The translations under genes were made by a program, and so were the position numbers. From Sutcliffiella sp. FSL R7-0096 (lineage in GTDB: Bacteria; Bacillota; Bacilli; Bacillales; Bacillaceae_I), in the NCBI RefSeq assembly GCF_038595065.1, contig NZ_CP152003.1, positions 3,452,001 to 3,516,000 on the forward strand: a stretch of 64,000 bases of DNA, given 5' to 3'. The notes under the pieces are model-generated. The model worked only from the letters and a program-made list of their open reading frames with translations, was not told the origin of the DNA and ran no database searches. Positions 1,946-45,543 of the stretch are shown here, piece by piece; position 1 is the first letter of the stretch, and every line of letters starts with the position of its first letter.

Positions 1946-2709
1946 CTTGATTTTCTCCTTTTTCCTTTTTCACTGATACTCTCAGCCAAGGCTCCTAATG
2001 CCTTTTTTTGTTCCTCCACCAGATGGAGGACCCCTTCTTCTGCCAGATCCAACAATTCATTCAGTTGTTTTCTTGAAAATGTTGCTTCTTCTCCAGTTCC
2101 CTGCAATTCCACAAGTTCCAAGGAACCCGTCATGATGACGTTCATATCCACTTGGGCAGTGGAGTCTTCTATGTAATTCAAATCAAGCAGCGGCTCCCCG
2201 TCTTCCATTACTCCAACTGAAGTAGCCGCCAAAAAGTCTGTCACTGGTATATCAGCTATCTTTTTTGCTTCCACTAGTTTCTGAAAGGCTAGCACCATCG
2301 CCACAAACGCACCTGTGATGGATGCCGTTCTTGTTCCACCATCAGCTTGGATGACATCACAGTCGATCCAAATCGTCTTTTCACCTATTTTCTCCAATTC
2401 CACAACCGACCGTAGCGCACGACCGATCAGACGTTGGATTTCCATTGTTCTGCCGGTGACCTTGCCTTTTGTGGACTCCCGCATGGTTCTTTTCTCTGTT
2501 GCCCTTGGAAGCATGGAATATTCCGCTGTAATCCATCCTTTTCCTCCACCGCGCATAAAAGGTGGCACCCTGTCTTCTATCGTTGCTGAACAAATTACTT
2601 TTGTATTTCCTACACAAATTAAAACCGATCCTTCTGGATGGGTGATGTAATCGGTGATAACTTCAACTGTTCTAATTTGATTTTGTTCTCTTCCATCTGA
2701 TCTGGACAT
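1942..2709 (-). CDS. rph: Ribonuclease PH
   Basis: A 255-residue phosphorolytic 3'-5' exoribonuclease that trims tRNA 3' ends using phosphate and is active as a hexamer. The protein starts [20 protein letters not shown]. The conserved blocks [45 protein letters not shown] and [19 protein letters not shown] follow in order. Length is within the family range; there is a short Lys/Arg-rich tail (KGKRRKSR). It is the first gene of the rph-rdgB-ysnB operon. A MITE copy lies about 35 bp upstream of the start, so the promoter must lie inside or beyond that element. Confidence 0.96.
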
Positions 2710-2744
2710 TCTAACAAACTCCTTTTGTCGCCATTATATAAAAA

Positions 2745-2928
2745 GGCTGTTTTCGTATACTTTGTTGCTTTTCGTATATTCAAATCATCCGTTATATTAC
2801 TTACTGTCGTGCTCTTTTCCACTATAGGATTTAAATTACTACTTGCATATTTACAGATACGTAAGCAATAAATAGTCCTACTGCCGACTTTTTATTAGTG
2901 AATAGCAACAATCTTTTAGAAAAGTGCC
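2745..2928 (-). mobile_element. MITE-like element, copy a
   Basis: A 184-bp non-coding element. One end reads GGCTGTTTTCGTATAC..TGTTGCT. The other end, reverse-complemented, reads GGCACTTTTCTAAAAGATTGTTGCT, giving an imperfect terminal inverted repeat of about 27 bp. It is flanked by an exact 8-bp direct repeat TATAAAAA (2737-2744 and 2929-2936). The core carries GAGCACGACAGTAAG, shared with the copies at 4393 and 5960. It lies between rph and gerM and encodes no transposase. Confidence 0.8.
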
Positions 2929-2955
2929 TATAAAAAAGAAGGCTCTATTATCCTC

Positions 2956-3083
2956 GCTGTTGATTTCCGTACCGGGCTTCGCTTTCCACGGGGCGGTGCT
3001 TGAGCCTCCTCACAACGCTTCAGGGATCTCAAGTCTACCGCTTCCACCCTCAGGAGTCTACACCCTATACTACAATCAACAGC
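2956..3083 (+). repeat. Bacillaceae-type GC-rich palindromic repeat, type A copy 1
   Basis: Starts GCTGTTGATT and ends with its reverse complement AATCAACAGC. Inside, GCGGTGCTTGAG pairs with CTCAAGTCTACCGC around the conserved GAGCCTCCTC. Six more type A copies occur in this window. It lies between rph and the gerM terminator, in no open frame that resembles a gene. I recall similar intergenic repeats from many Bacillaceae genomes but cannot give an accepted name. Confidence 0.85.
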
Positions 3084-3125
3084 TATAAAACAAGCTAAAT
3101 TCAACAATAACTTCTATTACAGAAT

Positions 3126-3159
3126 AAAAAGAAAGAAGAGGCAGTGTCTCACCTCTTCT
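3126..3159 (-). terminator. Terminator of gerM
   Basis: On the minus strand AGAAGAGG, a 10-base loop, CCTCTTCT and then TTCTTTTT, located just after the gerM stop codon. Confidence 0.75.
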
Positions 3160-3192
3160 CGGTTCTATTATTAGTATATCAAATTTTACACT

Positions 3193-4275
3193 TTAAAACC
3201 TGCCCGTGTTCACTTTTTCAGGACGTGTCACAGGTTCAGAGATGTTCGTGCCATCTGTCGCCATAAGATCGCCTTCCCCGTCCACCGTGATGGCAATGCT
3301 CTCCACACCTGTCTGCTCGGTCAAAGTGAGTACCAAGGAATCTACAATTGACTTGGACACTATACGCCCCTCAAGACCTAAGATCGCTTCATTAAAATTC
3401 AGTACTAGATTTCCATCTTCCATTACCGGATCATCCAAGAGGGCAATTTCATTGCTCAAGTCATTCGTTAAGCCCGAATTATGCGCTGGTCCTTTGATAA
3501 GGGCCTCCACAATCGCAGCATACTTATCTTTACCATCTAAGCTCAGTCTCGCTGTGACCGGAACATAATATGGGTCTCCTTCATTGCTTTCCGCCATAAA
3601 GTATAGCGTCACGGCGCGGGAACTCATTAGATCGACGGCTTCGGCCGTATCATAGTTAATCCCATTGGCTCTGCTTACACCTTCCCCAATAGGGGTTTTG
3701 TTGACAGGCATCACTGTTTGCAGATGTCCATTCACCATTATTTGGACCTTATCCACATTTTCGAATTGTGTGAGCGTCCATGTGATTGCTTGAAGAATTT
3801 TCTCTTCATCTGCAGCATCATAACTCATGAATTCGTTGTTGAAATCAGCAACGATGGTGCCGTCTTCCTTAAGGTTCACGTCCACTTCCGTTCCAGCAGG
3901 TAAAACGGCACGGAACCCATTCGGCAGCATGGCATCCACCGGTCCACCGGCAACTAAGTATTCCAATGCCTGTTTCGCCACTTCGTTTGTTTTTGGCAAC
4001 TCCATCGTCTGCGAAACAACATATCCATTGCTATCAATTAAGTATAATTCTCTTTGGACATTTTCGGATGCAGCCTCTTCCCCATCCGTTTCTTCCCCGG
4101 TTACATCATTTTCTGTACCATTTTCGTTTGCTACATCATCTACATATGAAACATCCTGCGGAATATCCTGTTCGGAGCCTGCTTGCTCGTCACCTCCAAA
4201 TAATCCACATCCAGATAAAAGCACAGAAGAAGCAAGCACGGCAGCAGCGGTCATTTTCACTTTTTTATGAGACAT
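3193..4275 (-). CDS. gerM: Germination lipoprotein GerM
   Basis: A 360-residue lipoprotein needed in B. subtilis for sporulation and normal germination, expressed in the mother cell and forespore envelope. The chosen ATG at 4275 follows AGGAGGG at good spacing and gives a lipoprotein signal: MSHKKVKMTAAAVLASS, then LLSGC with the lipid-modified Cys at residue 23. The frame extends further upstream but without signal or SD. A Glu/Asp-rich linker (about 28-70) is followed by two GerMN domains (about 75-200 and 225-350), each with a VDKVQIMVNG- or VESIAITVDG-type strand. It precedes racE and has its own terminator. Sporulation-specific promoter elements could not be assigned with confidence. Confidence 0.92.
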   Translation of the reverse strand: MSHKKVKMTAAAVLASSVLLSGCGLFGGDEQAGSEQDIPQDVSYVDDVANENGTENDVTGEETDGEEAASENVQRELYLIDSNGYVVSQTMELPKTNEVAKQALEYLVAGGPVDAMLPNGFRAVLPAGTEVDVNLKEDGTIVADFNNEFMSYDAADEEKILQAITWTLTQFENVDKVQIMVNGHLQTVMPVNKTPIGEGVSRANGINYDTAEAVDLMSSRAVTLYFMAESNEGDPYYVPVTARLSLDGKDKYAAIVEALIKGPAHNSGLTNDLSNEIALLDDPVMEDGNLVLNFNEAILGLEGRIVSKSIVDSLVLTLTEQTGVESIAITVDGEGDLMATDGTNISEPVTRPEKVNTGRF

Positions 4276-4392
4276 AGGTTTCCCTCCTAAGACGGTTTGT
4301 ACTAATATATATACGAGCTTTCCAAAAAATAGACCGAGCTCTGTAAAAAGTTTTGTCCCATTTGTAAATTGCTTTATTTTTTTGTTCCGAAT

Positions 4393-4575
4393 GGCTCTTT
4401 GCTCAAAGATTGTTGCTATATCCTTATAAAAAGTCTGCAATTGGACTTTTTACTGCTTTCATACTCTAAAAGGTGCAAGCAGTTTCTTAAGAACGGCAGG
4501 GAAAGGAGCACGACAGTAAGGAAAATAACGGTTATTGTATCCATACGAAAAAGCAACAAGTTTACGAAAAGAGCC
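4393..4575 (+). mobile_element. MITE-like element, copy b
   Basis: A 183-bp element, opposite orientation to copy a. Ends: GGCTCTTTGCTCAAAGATTGTTGCT on the left and the reverse complement GGCTCTTTTCGTAAACTTGTTGCT on the right. An 8-bp flanking duplication has one mismatch: TTCCGAAT (4385-4392) and TTCTGAAT (4576-4583). It sits between the gerM start region and the racE terminator, so gerM transcription has to start inside it or downstream of it. Confidence 0.8.
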
Positions 4576-4590
4576 TTCTGAATAAATCAC

Positions 4591-4625
4591 AAAAAAGCCA
4601 CTCTATCCAAATTGGATAGGGTGGC
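4591..4625 (-). terminator. Terminator of racE
   Basis: Minus strand GCCACCCTATCC, loop AATT, GGATAGAGTGGC and six T. A strong intrinsic terminator 23 bp after the racE stop. Confidence 0.88.
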
Positions 4626-4647
4626 CTCTCATATACTTTGTAGATTG

Positions 4648-5457
4648 TTAGATCCCAATCGGATCCAGTACAATCGTTTGTACATTTTCAATCGGCTGCT
4701 CGAACAGTTTGCTTGCTATTTTCTCAAACATTTCCTTTGAGCCGGTTGTGTAGAATTGGTGCTGTTCTTTTAATTGGCTTTTGTTTAAAAGCTTTTTGAA
4801 ATTGAGGATCGTACTGACTTCACGGGCCGTTTCATCACCCGAACATATCAGCTGGATATCCTCCCCCATCACTTCCTGGATTGTAGAACGCAATAAAGGA
4901 TAATGGGTACATCCAAGTATCAATGTATCGATCTTTGAGCCCTTGAAAAGGTGTAGGGTATCCTGAACAATCCCTCTAGCCCGCTCGCCTTCGAAATCCC
5001 CGCTTTCGACTAACGGCACGAAGTTCGGGCAAGCCAAGCTTTCCACATGCACTTCATTGTTGATAGATCTAAGGGCATCGGCATAGGCACCACTGTTAAT
5101 CGTCCCGACAGTACCGATGACACCTACCTGATAATTTGAAGTGACCTTCAGCGCCGTTCTGGCACCAGGATCCACAACTCCTATAACAGGAATGTCCAAT
5201 TGTTCCCTTATCTCATCCAATATAACAGCTGTGGCGGTGTTACAAGCGATAACGAGCATCTTGATATCATGGGTCAACAGGTACCTGGTCATTTCCCATG
5301 TGTAAAGCCTTACCTCGTCAACAGGCCTTGGCCCATAGGGACAACGAGCCGTATCCCCCAGATAAATGATGCGCTCTTTTGGCAACTGACGCATGATTTC
5401 TTTCGCAACCGTCAGGCCTCCTACTCCAGAATCAATAACTCCAATTGGTCTTTGCAA
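4648..5457 (-). CDS. racE: Glutamate racemase
   Basis: A 269-residue cytoplasmic enzyme making D-glutamate for peptidoglycan. The N-terminal [15 protein letters not shown] (6-20) binds substrate. The two catalytic cysteines are in ACNTATA (Cys72) and GCTHYPLL (about residue 185). [11 protein letters not shown] near 34 is also typical. Full length with no insertions. It is preceded by the MarR-type ysmB with a 9-bp gap, so the two are probably one transcript, as in B. subtilis. Confidence 0.96.
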
Positions 5458-5466
5458 CTAAATCCC

Positions 5467-5922
5467 TCATTCTTTCATTTCTAGATGTAAACGTGCTAAA
5501 CACTTTTCTAACATGAAAATCTCATCTTTGGAATAGTTCTTTAGTATGTTTTGCAAGTAGTCCTGACGTTTTTTTACCACTTCTGCAATGATGCGCTCTC
5601 CTTCTTCTAACAGATGGATTCGCACTACACGACGGTCGTTCGGATCTTTTACACGCTGGACAAGTTCATTCTTTTCCATACGGTCTACAAGATCTGTAGT
5701 CGTACTGCATGCCAAATACATTTTCGTGGACAATTCACCAATCGTCATATCCCCACCTTCAAGCAACCATTGCAACGCAACGAATTGAGGAGGTGTGATC
5801 GTGTAATTGCTCAGAATTTCGCGACCTTTTTGCTTTACTAATGTCGCTATGTATCTTAATGATTTTTCTATATCAGCCACTAATTGTTGGTCCTGTAATA
5901 CTGCTTCATTCTGATTCGTCAT
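5467..5922 (-). CDS. ysmB: MarR-family transcriptional regulator YsmB
   Basis: A 151-residue winged-helix regulator: MTNQNEAVLQDQQLV, then a dimerisation helix, the recognition region MTIGELSTKMYLACSTTTDL and the wing DPNDRRVVRIHL. I start it at 5922, where AGAGGG precedes the ATG. The frame could be extended to 5970, but that extension (MRRAEIKRKREERGSR) runs into MITE copy c and is unlikely to be native. Target genes are unknown; the constant linkage to racE and gerE suggests a housekeeping role near the cell wall. Confidence 0.85.
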   Translation of the reverse strand: MTNQNEAVLQDQQLVADIEKSLRYIATLVKQKGREILSNYTITPPQFVALQWLLEGGDMTIGELSTKMYLACSTTTDLVDRMEKNELVQRVKDPNDRRVVRIHLLEEGERIIAEVVKKRQDYLQNILKNYSKDEIFMLEKCLARLHLEMKE

Positions 5923-5959
5923 TCTCGACCCTCTTTCTTCCCTTTTTCTTTTTATCTCA

Positions 5960-6138
5960 GCTCTTCTCAAGAATTGTTGCTATCCCACGTAAAATGTCAG
6001 TAATGGAATTTTTTACCGTAAATCTACTCTAATTTACACATGCAACTATTCTCATTCTTAACAAGAAAAGAGCACGACAGTAAGGAGTAAAACGAGTTAC
6101 TTATAAATACGAAAAGCAACAAAGTTACGAAAACAGCC
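5960..6138 (+). mobile_element. MITE-like element, copy c
   Basis: A 179-bp element with ends GCTCTTCTCAAGAATTGTTGCT and (reverse-complemented) GGCTGTTTTCGTAACTTTGTTGCT. The flanking duplication is 8 bp with one mismatch: TTATCTCA (5952-5959) and TTATCTGA (6139-6146). It contains GAGCACGACAGTAAGG as in copies a and b. It occupies the gap between gerE and ysmB, 37 bp upstream of the chosen ysmB start. Confidence 0.8.
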
Positions 6139-6269
6139 TTATCTGAACATAAGATGTCATGTATTCATTGTGTCTAGTATGTTTATTTTCTTATGTTTTC
6201 ATATAAAAAGCAAGATGTAAAGGCTTATAAACATATTTACCCACATTGAAATACTTGGTTTAATCAAGA

Positions 6270-6318
6270 ATAAATAACCGACTACCATTCATAACAGGTT
6301 TGTTAGAAGATAGTCGGC
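6270..6318 (-). terminator. Terminator of gerE
   Basis: Minus strand CCGACTA and TAGTCGG separated by a long loop, then TTATTTATTC. Directly after the gerE stop codon. The long loop lowers confidence. Confidence 0.5.
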
Positions 6319-6326
6319 AGGTTAAG

Positions 6327-6551
6327 TTAAAGCTCTAATTCTCCCATGCGAAGAAGCTCGACAACTGCTTGGGAACGCCCCTTTACTCCCAGCTTTTGCA
6401 TAGCATTTGAAATGTGGTTCCGAACTGTCTTTTCACTGATAAACAACTCACCAGCAATCTCTTTGGTTGTCTTATCCTGAACTAACAGCTCAAATACTTC
6501 TCTTTCTCTTTTGGTAAGCAATGGCTTTGGTTGAAACTCTTTCTCCTTCAA
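6327..6551 (-). CDS. gerE: Spore coat transcription regulator GerE
   Basis: A 74-residue LuxR-type helix-turn-helix protein that acts in the mother cell late in sporulation, with SigK, on coat genes. The whole sequence is one HTH domain: [20 protein letters not shown], the recognition helix [17 protein letters not shown] and the C-terminal dimer helix [13 protein letters not shown]. It matches the B. subtilis protein nearly residue for residue from memory. The start codon is TTG at 6551 with GGAGG ten bases upstream. Confidence 0.97.
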
Positions 6552-7165: not shown

Positions 7166-7307
7166 TTGGCTTTAACTCCCTGTTTCCTTTCGTTTTAGGT
7201 GTTCGCTTTCCCCGAGAGGAAGGGACAGGAGACCCCTCAGGCTTGCCGAGGAGGCTCCCGGACCGCCCGCAGAAAAACGAAGCGCCTGGAACGGAAATTA
7301 ACCGTCG
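7166..7307 (-). repeat. GC-rich palindromic repeat, type B copy 1 (rearranged)
   Basis: The right part reads as a type B copy on the minus strand (GGAAGGGACAGGAGACCCC, GAGGAGGCTCCCGGACCGCC, GCGCCTGGAACGGAAATTAA). The left part (CCTTTCGTTTTAGGTGTTCG) is the same terminal segment in the opposite orientation, so the expected AGGAGTCT arm is missing and the copy is a head-to-head chimera. Confidence 0.7.
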
Positions 7308-45459: not shown

Positions 45460-45493
45460 CCTTCTCTCCCTTTTCCACCATATTTTTTTTAGT

Positions 45494-45543
45494 AAGGCTG
45501 TTTCTTTGTTGCTTTTTTTATTATCTGTCGTGCTTTGCAGGGC
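45494..45543 (-). mobile_element. MITE-like element fragment, copy d
   Basis: GGCTGTTTCTTTGTTGCTTT and CTGTCGTGCT match one end and the core of copies a-c; the other half is missing. It lies between the glpD leader terminator and the glpD SD, inside the leader RNA. Confidence 0.6.

Follow-up and report, generated by a model that had tools for sequence, protein, structure and literature searches.

The window analysed here, the whole stretch of 64,000 nucleotides, raises the question of what the three short, similar elements next to rph, gerM and ysmB are and what has moved them. In a first-pass annotation they had been described as elements of 179–184 bp that end in imperfect terminal inverted repeats (TIRs) and are each surrounded by 8-bp direct repeats. 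Their coordinates were confirmed (Table 1), and the direct repeats of e1, e2 and e3 match at 8, 7 and 7 positions, respectively. This is far above the frequency found for random pairs of 8-mers within the same three gaps, which is 0.00015 for exact matches and 0.00095 for matches at 7 or more positions. When ORFs of at least 70 aa were considered for the window copies, a 70-aa frame (4369–4581) was seen to span e2, which is not transposase-sized. The nearest paralogue of e2 in its own genome is 94% identical. A further fragment proposed at 45494 is unsupported: it contains end-like and core-like pieces (blastn E 0.003 within the window), but is non-significant with the family profile (E 8).

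Table 1. Coordinates of the three MITE copies of the window, their target duplications and their inner blocks.
Feature	Positions	Strand	Description	Basis
MITE copy e1	2745–2928	minus	184 bp; lies before rph, start codon 35 bp away	profile match 1.6e-45, ends
MITE copy e2	4393–4575	plus	183 bp; upstream of gerM	profile match 6e-52
MITE copy e3	5960–6138	plus	179 bp, first G lost; upstream of start codon of marR-like ysmB	profile match 4.4e-31
e1 left target duplication	2737–2744		TATAAAAA; 8/8 identical to right copy	
e1 right target duplication	2929–2936		TATAAAAA	
e2 left target duplication	4385–4392		TTCCGAAT; 7/8 identical to right copy	
e2 right target duplication	4576–4583		TTCTGAAT	
e3 left target duplication	5952–5959		TTATCTCA; 7/8 identical to right copy	
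e3 right target duplication	6139–6146		TTATCTGA	
Block A of e1	2867–2896	minus	palindrome, imperfect in e1	sequence and family conservation, covariation
Block B of e1	2800–2820	minus	GGAAAAGAGCACGACAGTAAG on minus strand	sequence and family conservation
Block A of e2	4427–4456	plus	palindrome AAAAAGTC-TGCAATTG-GACTTTTT	sequence and family conservation, covariation
Block B of e2	4499–4521	plus	GGGAAAGGAGCACGACAGTAAGG	sequence and family conservation
Block A of e3	5989–6016	plus		sequence and family conservation, covariation
Block B of e3	6064–6085	plus	AGAAAAGAGCACGACAGTAAGG	sequence and family conservation

The genome-wide search that had been suggested along with the annotation revealed that the view of a mobile MITE with 8-bp target duplications holds beyond the window. 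Roughly 125 copies are present in the genome of 4.9 Mb, which belongs to the Sutcliffiella/Bacillus horikoshii group; the core GAGCACGACAGTAAG was found at 135 genome sites with up to two mismatches, in comparison to 9 sites for the reversed pattern used as control. The stretches retrieved contain at least 113 distinct copies, 101 of them near full length, and the modal length is 184 bp. Between the two ends, 22 of the 28 bases of the consensus TIRs agree (counted by eye), and the 24-base end patterns gave no control matches in 13 genomes. During this census the iterated family profile drifted to both orientations, presumably since the element is made almost palindromic by its ends. At each place the best strand was kept, and an earlier profile was used from then on.

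Exact 8-bp target duplications flank 41 of the 101 near-full-length copies, whereas re-paired flanks gave a mean of 0.6 and a maximum of 4 in 2000 trials; allowing one mismatch (at least 7/8), 67 copies stand against 3.1 with re-paired flanks. In an offset scan zero shift was best for 8-mers, and 9-mers scored lower. The duplications are varied A/T-rich 8-mers. At two places one copy sits inserted in the left end of another copy. Of the 68 copies classified, none is located within an ORF, and no bias in orientation or gene arrangement was found around the copies, the arrangement resembling that of control gaps. Searching plasmid and phage collections with one element copy yielded no match at E 1e-5, and one string each of blocks A and B had no exact counterpart in viral contigs.

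The claim of transposition had been set against the outcome that all relatives carry the same copies and lack empty sites. Here, e1 is absent from all nine relative loci (L140–L148), and its empty site can be read in L140 and L142 as a single TATAAAAA. For e3, six of the nine loci lack the copy, with a single TTATCTGA readable in L140, L142 and L144, and same-site copies are present in L143, L145 and L148. At the e2 site, none of the nine loci holds a significant copy, and the exact empty target is unreadable; the corresponding gap in L141 contains a 48-base piece that is non-significant (E 0.05). All 16 genomes of the genus that were searched contain the element, in copy numbers ranging from few to more than 100. 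The family is thus a real MITE, short, bounded by TIRs, devoid of a transposase gene, with target duplications at many loci and with empty sites.

The first-pass annotation had recognised no named family. Comparison of the TIRs with those of IS families assigned the ends to the IS1595 family of insertion sequences: members of this family in related Bacillales are flanked by 8-bp duplications, and their ends are almost the same, with up to 22 of 24 bases shared. The end-pattern search uncovered an IS of 1810 bp in a genome of the same family and another genus (G001), with the ends GGCTGTTTTCGTATAGATTGTTGC and CGCTGTTTTCGTAAAGATTGTTGC and bounded by exact duplications ATAAAAAA. The IS carries a 354-aa frame with matches to PF12762 (E 2.8e-13), the IS1595 transposase model NF033547 (211 bits, cut-off 75) and the IS1/IS1595 zinc domain NF050000 (53 bits, cut-off 28). 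A second genome, of the same genus (G004), contains two identical IS copies of 1554 bp, each with exact duplications. In the proteins of both genomes these three models lie above cut-off, and the Pfam zinc ribbon PF12760 lies below its own.

Among 31 transposase loci, paired ends, which had to come with a duplication matching at 7/8 or better, were of the MITE type at eight (two being copies of one IS) and of the related type GGCTYTGTT at five; 16 had no paired ends and two gave spurious pairs. Locus L240 belongs to those without paired ends, although its protein and the one of G001 share 89% identity. At two loci (L245 and L246), TCTCAAAGATTG occurs in one end and CGTATAGATTG in the other, closely resembling the two MITE ends, and the transposase frame contains a stop; a decayed IS with a left end of the same kind is present in G014. 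An IS1595-family transposase is the likely mobiliser. In the own genome no PF12762 match was obtained at E 0.001 and only a weak decayed transposase-like trace is present, and because of this the MITE looks orphaned here. Outside the ends, strict expressions revealed no block common to the MITE and seven IS1595-type ISs, so that a descent from any one of them by internal deletion is unsupported.

On these grounds it is very probable that the family is a non-autonomous MITE moved in trans by an IS1595-family transposase. The enzyme would have recognised the MITE ends of 24–28 bp and inserted the element at a staggered cut of 8 bp, in intergenic DNA rich in A/T. The autonomous partner would later have decayed or been lost from this genome, while the MITE copies remained, and the inner blocks A and B may act in cis during transposition.

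These blocks go beyond the first reading: two conserved internal blocks flank a variable spacer and are about as conserved as the TIRs. Block A is a palindrome with compensatory changes, as judged by a genus-wide pair count with slid controls. Block B is a 13-base motif, GAAAAGAGCACGA, which repeats the tip of the MITE end (GAAAAGAGC). Searched with strict expressions, neither block was found in the seven IS1595-type ISs checked. In 59 of 79 own copies, those with five close relatives, private differences per site amount to 0.043 in the ends, 0.041 in block A, 0.037 in block B and 0.086 in the spacer. With the 79 own copies, RNAalifold recovered the block A hairpin in part only and at a weak energy of -1.29, and many of its strongly covarying column pairs are not base pairs, which we take as a subfamily signal. 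Due to this, the covariation of block A was judged by the pair count.

Since the blocks are about as constrained as the ends and no gene-arrangement or orientation bias surrounds the copies, we infer that they are putative cis-acting transposition modules, with less confidence than we place in the mobilisation by IS1595. The ratio of differences in blocks A and B to those in the spacer is 0.36, 0.30, 0.31 and 0.30 across the pair identity classes and 0.40 for pairs of at least 0.90 identity. If selection acted via transposition only, the ratio of the closest pairs would be expected to approach 1; as it stays low, a constraint after insertion is possible, which speaks partly against a cis role in transposition. 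The ends behave in the same way, with reduced differences persisting in the closest pairs, and subfamily mixing may cause the low ratio. That the blocks turn the MITE into a substrate superior to the autonomous element, for instance by offering additional sites for the transposase or a host factor, is a tentative idea that we consider rather doubtful.

The persisting constraint, together with the two conserved blocks, the compensatory changes in block A and the position of e1 and e3 immediately ahead of the start codons of rph and ysmB, would also fit a host regulatory or structural repeat of the BOX-, REP- or bcr-type, kept for the neighbouring genes and not primarily a transposon. Nevertheless, the target duplications, the empty sites, the ends, the insertion of copy into copy and the lack of bias in orientation or gene arrangement argue against it, so that we regard this explanation as improbable. 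Even less credit can be given to membership in the ISL3 family. ISL3 ends begin with GGCTCTTT and the target duplications are 8 bp long, a resemblance in the outermost bases and in the length of the duplication. However, the ISL3 transposase domain PF01610 is missing from the own genome and occurs in two of 18 genomes of the family, and scanning three ISL3 loci (L163, L164 and L165) for end motifs, as well as the inverted repeats of L164, gave no MITE-like end pair. ISL3 was therefore rejected as mobiliser, and the full MITE ends are matched by IS1595 elements. That independent short repeats are flanked by similar sequences by chance can be practically dismissed: A/T-rich flanks do increase chance matches, but the excess of exact duplications over re-paired flanks refutes this.

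The preferred reading, a MITE mobilised by IS1595, has a counterpart in the archaeon Haloquadratum walsbyi, where an IS1595-type MITE of 165 bp with inverted repeats of 25 and direct repeats of 8 has been described with ISHwa6 as putative partner (PMC3852290). For H. walsbyi MITEs in general, it is reported there that MITE and partner IS have nothing but the borders in common and that loss of the partner is possible. In contrast to roughly 125 copies in Sutcliffiella, seven are given for that MITE, and the corresponding section describes no conserved inner modules for it (PMC3852290). For the IS1595 family, 8-bp target duplications are described as usual and the transposase as combining a zinc and a DDE domain (PMC8101967); the Sutcliffiella MITE shares the former, but encodes no transposase. 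Like bcr1 of the Bacillus cereus group, reported with up to 130 integral copies per genome, it is a short interspersed repeat in Bacillaceae (PMC6542083). However, the mobility of bcr elements is linked there to TTTAT motifs and possible site-specific recombination (PMC6542083), whereas the Sutcliffiella MITE has varied 8-bp duplications and IS1595-type ends.

With this, a Bacillaceae MITE family has a likely mobiliser, and constrained interior positions of a MITE can be told apart from free ones. This leads to a testable general question, namely what, apart from its inverted repeats, allows a MITE to become more numerous than its parent transposon. If the blocks do make the MITE a better substrate, this would explain more than 100 copies and their persistence where the partner vanished.

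The proposal that the promoters of these gaps must lie within the copies or have been displaced by them found no backing: positions 2600–6400 contain five promoter-like sites compared to a shuffle mean of 7.9, and neither promoters nor terminators exceeded shuffles in the scan. At gathering scores, no RNA family of the window search lies on the MITE elements. The window itself contains matches to a lysine riboswitch, a T-box and tRNA.

The three elements described in the first-pass annotation as MITE-like, flanked by 8-bp repeats, are real and lie where it placed them. Here, each short non-autonomous element (MITE) is divided into ends (terminal inverted repeats), an inner palindrome (block A), an inner motif (block B) and the spacer between the blocks. 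In the genome holding the window (own genome; one contig, 4,908,118 bases) a genome-wide search yielded 135 occurrences of the core GAGCACGACAGTAAG at up to two mismatches, in comparison to 9 for the reversed pattern. The fetched stretches of this genome contain at least 113 distinct copies, 101 of them near full length. The length mode is 184 bp, and longer variants of 210-212 and 239 bp have part of the left half repeated.

An offset scan of the flanks gave a duplication length of 8 bp. The flanking 8-mers are identical in 41 of 101 copies and match in at least seven of eight positions in 67, whereas re-paired flanks reached means of 0.6 and 3.1 (maxima 4 and 11, 2000 trials). The targets are A/T-rich, most beginning with TTT and most ending in A. 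Furthermore, two copies are nested within the left end of another copy, with the target TTTCTCAA in both, and for one of these the right duplication reads TTTCTCTA.

Repeat features of the window (window coordinates)
Feature	Position	Strand	Observation
e1 (MITE)	2745-2928	minus	flanking 8-mers agree 8/8
e2 (MITE)	4393-4575		flanking 8-mers agree 7/8
e3 (MITE)	5960-6138		flanking 8-mers agree 7/8
G/C-rich repeat	about 2936-3132		adjoins e1; about ten matches in window
G/C-rich repeat, similar stretches	near 7229, 13134, 16315, 17539, 28522, 31431, 32721, 35267, 38980
Possible degenerate remnant	45490-45540		end-like and block-B-like pieces

The fragment noted earlier at 45494 does contain these pieces, but its match to the family profile is not significant.

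Empty sites, which had been suggested as a check, were sought in nine loci retrieved with the GerM protein from Sutcliffiella, Bacillus horikoshii and neighbours (L140-L148), the closest being 97% identical. The element e1 is missing in all nine, along with the second repeat adjoining it, and L140 and L142 retain a single TATAAAAA at the empty site. At the e2 site, no significant MITE copy was found in the nine relatives, in a region too diverged for the exact empty target to be read; the gap in L141 holds a 48-base non-significant piece (E 0.05) and that in L142 a different repeat. The element e3 is missing in six relatives, three of which (L140, L142, L144) have one TTATCTGA, and its site is occupied in L143, L145 and L148. 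Since these same-site copies are 84-85% identical to e3, whereas its closest relative in the own genome reaches only 72%, e3 appears to be an old insertion common to these lineages. Across L140-L148, e3 (with flanks, 5952-6146) is common to distant relatives and missing in closer ones. On a five-gene tree, this pattern requires about five losses (counted by eye) or allele exchange between lineages, and either precise loss or such an exchange would fit the distribution.

The comparison of the ends with IS families making 8-bp duplications, also proposed earlier, led to IS1595. An end-pattern search in ten genomes revealed in genome G001 a pair of inverted MITE-type ends separated by 1.8 kb and flanked on both sides by the duplication ATAAAAAA. 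They enclose two frames lying tail to tail. The first, of 354 aa, is identified by both Pfam and NCBIfam as an IS1595 transposase; the second, of 197 aa (L202, 1686-2276), appears lipoprotein-like by eye and has no Pfam match at E 0.001. In G004, two 100% identical IS copies lie at different places, each with exact duplications. A relative at E 1e-60 or better is present in 58 of 397 genomes of the order. Among 31 transposase loci checked for ends with a duplication of at least 7/8, eight carry MITE-type ends (L220 and L228 being copies of one IS), five the related GGCTYTGTT type, two spurious pairs and 16 none. Compared by eye over the full end, MITE and IS agree at up to 22 of 24 bases, a value reached for instance by L246 and L254 with the left end.

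The own genome has no PF12762 match and only a broken transposase trace, two pieces spanning about 90 residues, and G014 holds a broken IS copy retaining the same kind of left end. These traces suggest that an IS1595-type partner was once present in the genus and is now decayed or gone in the own genome. In an IS-like copy of G001 (L229, C1:1660177-1660421), transposase residues 1-58 are joined directly to 331-354; this internal deletion is a possible step toward a MITE.

For Haloquadratum walsbyi, one report lists an IS1595-type MITE of 165 bp whose inverted repeats measure 25 and whose direct repeats measure 8, and states that MITEs often share only their borders with a partner, which may have been lost (PMC3852290). 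The features of the IS1595 family and of bcr1 follow PMC8101967 and PMC6542083, respectively. The present family was not found in titles and abstract openings on IS1595, MITEs in Bacillus and Sutcliffiella transposable elements, mostly outside subscription journals and without ISfinder; absence from print is not claimed.

When 18 genomes of the family were searched at the DNA level, with no more than 40 candidates scored in each, the MITE was present in 16/16 genomes of the genus, and one of the two others had a weak match. The two-block pattern matches 13 of 397 genomes of the order, every one of this genus (13 of 15 sampled), and none of 382 outside it. The end pattern occurs 259 times in G014, 78 times in G012 and 43 times in G004, with 0 hits for the control.

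In a genus-wide alignment of 89 elements, thinned from 144 by dropping near-duplicates, mean information per column is 1.51 and 1.52 bits for the ends, 1.56 and 1.48 for the arms of block A, 1.15 for its loop, 1.67 for block B and 0.61 for the spacer. The own genome contributes 48 of these 89, which had been recovered with a profile that also covers the interior. Selection independent of the interior, by the ends alone in G004, G012 and G014 (60 loci minus six without an end pair), gave block A in 38 and block B in 42 of 54 elements by strict expression; over all 80 elements (9/89 loci lacking an end pair) the numbers are 63 and 62. Block A is a palindrome, in which 34 cells have both partners changed, in comparison to 14.8 after shuffling (0/500 reaching 34) and no more than 13 in the slid controls. 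Its covariation is 0.139 versus at most 0.048 in slid controls, and the five pairs with a double change are not unusual (64/500 shuffles). Block B includes GAAAAGAGC, which is complementary to nine bases at the left-end tip. Strict expressions for the two blocks had no match in seven IS elements.

In our reading, blocks A and B would help transposition. Their private-difference rate is about that of the ends and about half that of the spacer. Among copies at 0.90 identity or more, the ratio of A+B to spacer differences is 0.40, with no rise toward 1. This counts against a role in transposition only, because blocks neutral after insertion should approach 1. Subfamily mixing could nevertheless cause the flat ratio, and the ends share this behaviour. 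The gene context disfavours a cis-regulatory role as the cause of conservation: the 68 copies classified (33/101 were dropped for short fetched flanks) lie in 41 tandem, 17 divergent and 10 convergent gaps, against 61%, 20% and 20% of 128 control gaps, none lies inside an ORF (ORF calls being crude throughout), and tandem pairs show 20 sense versus 21 antisense orientations.

The G/C-rich repeat beside e1 may be another IS1595-type MITE. Three of its left ends, e.g., GGCTCTGCTAAACGCCGCTGTTGA, resemble those of the second IS1595 type (GGCTCTGTTAAA..TGTTGA), and one copy, in L142, shows the two ends together with an exact 8-bp duplication, aaaataaa; 37 of 56 copies scanned showed no ends. Some G/C-rich repeats adjoin ends of the first type (GGCTSTTTTC..TTGTTGC), both ends in L184, one end in L003, L180, L195, L218 and L355, and by eye, without BLAST confirmation, also in L203, L204 and L296. 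It is as if one G/C-rich cargo were carried by the ends of two IS1595 types.
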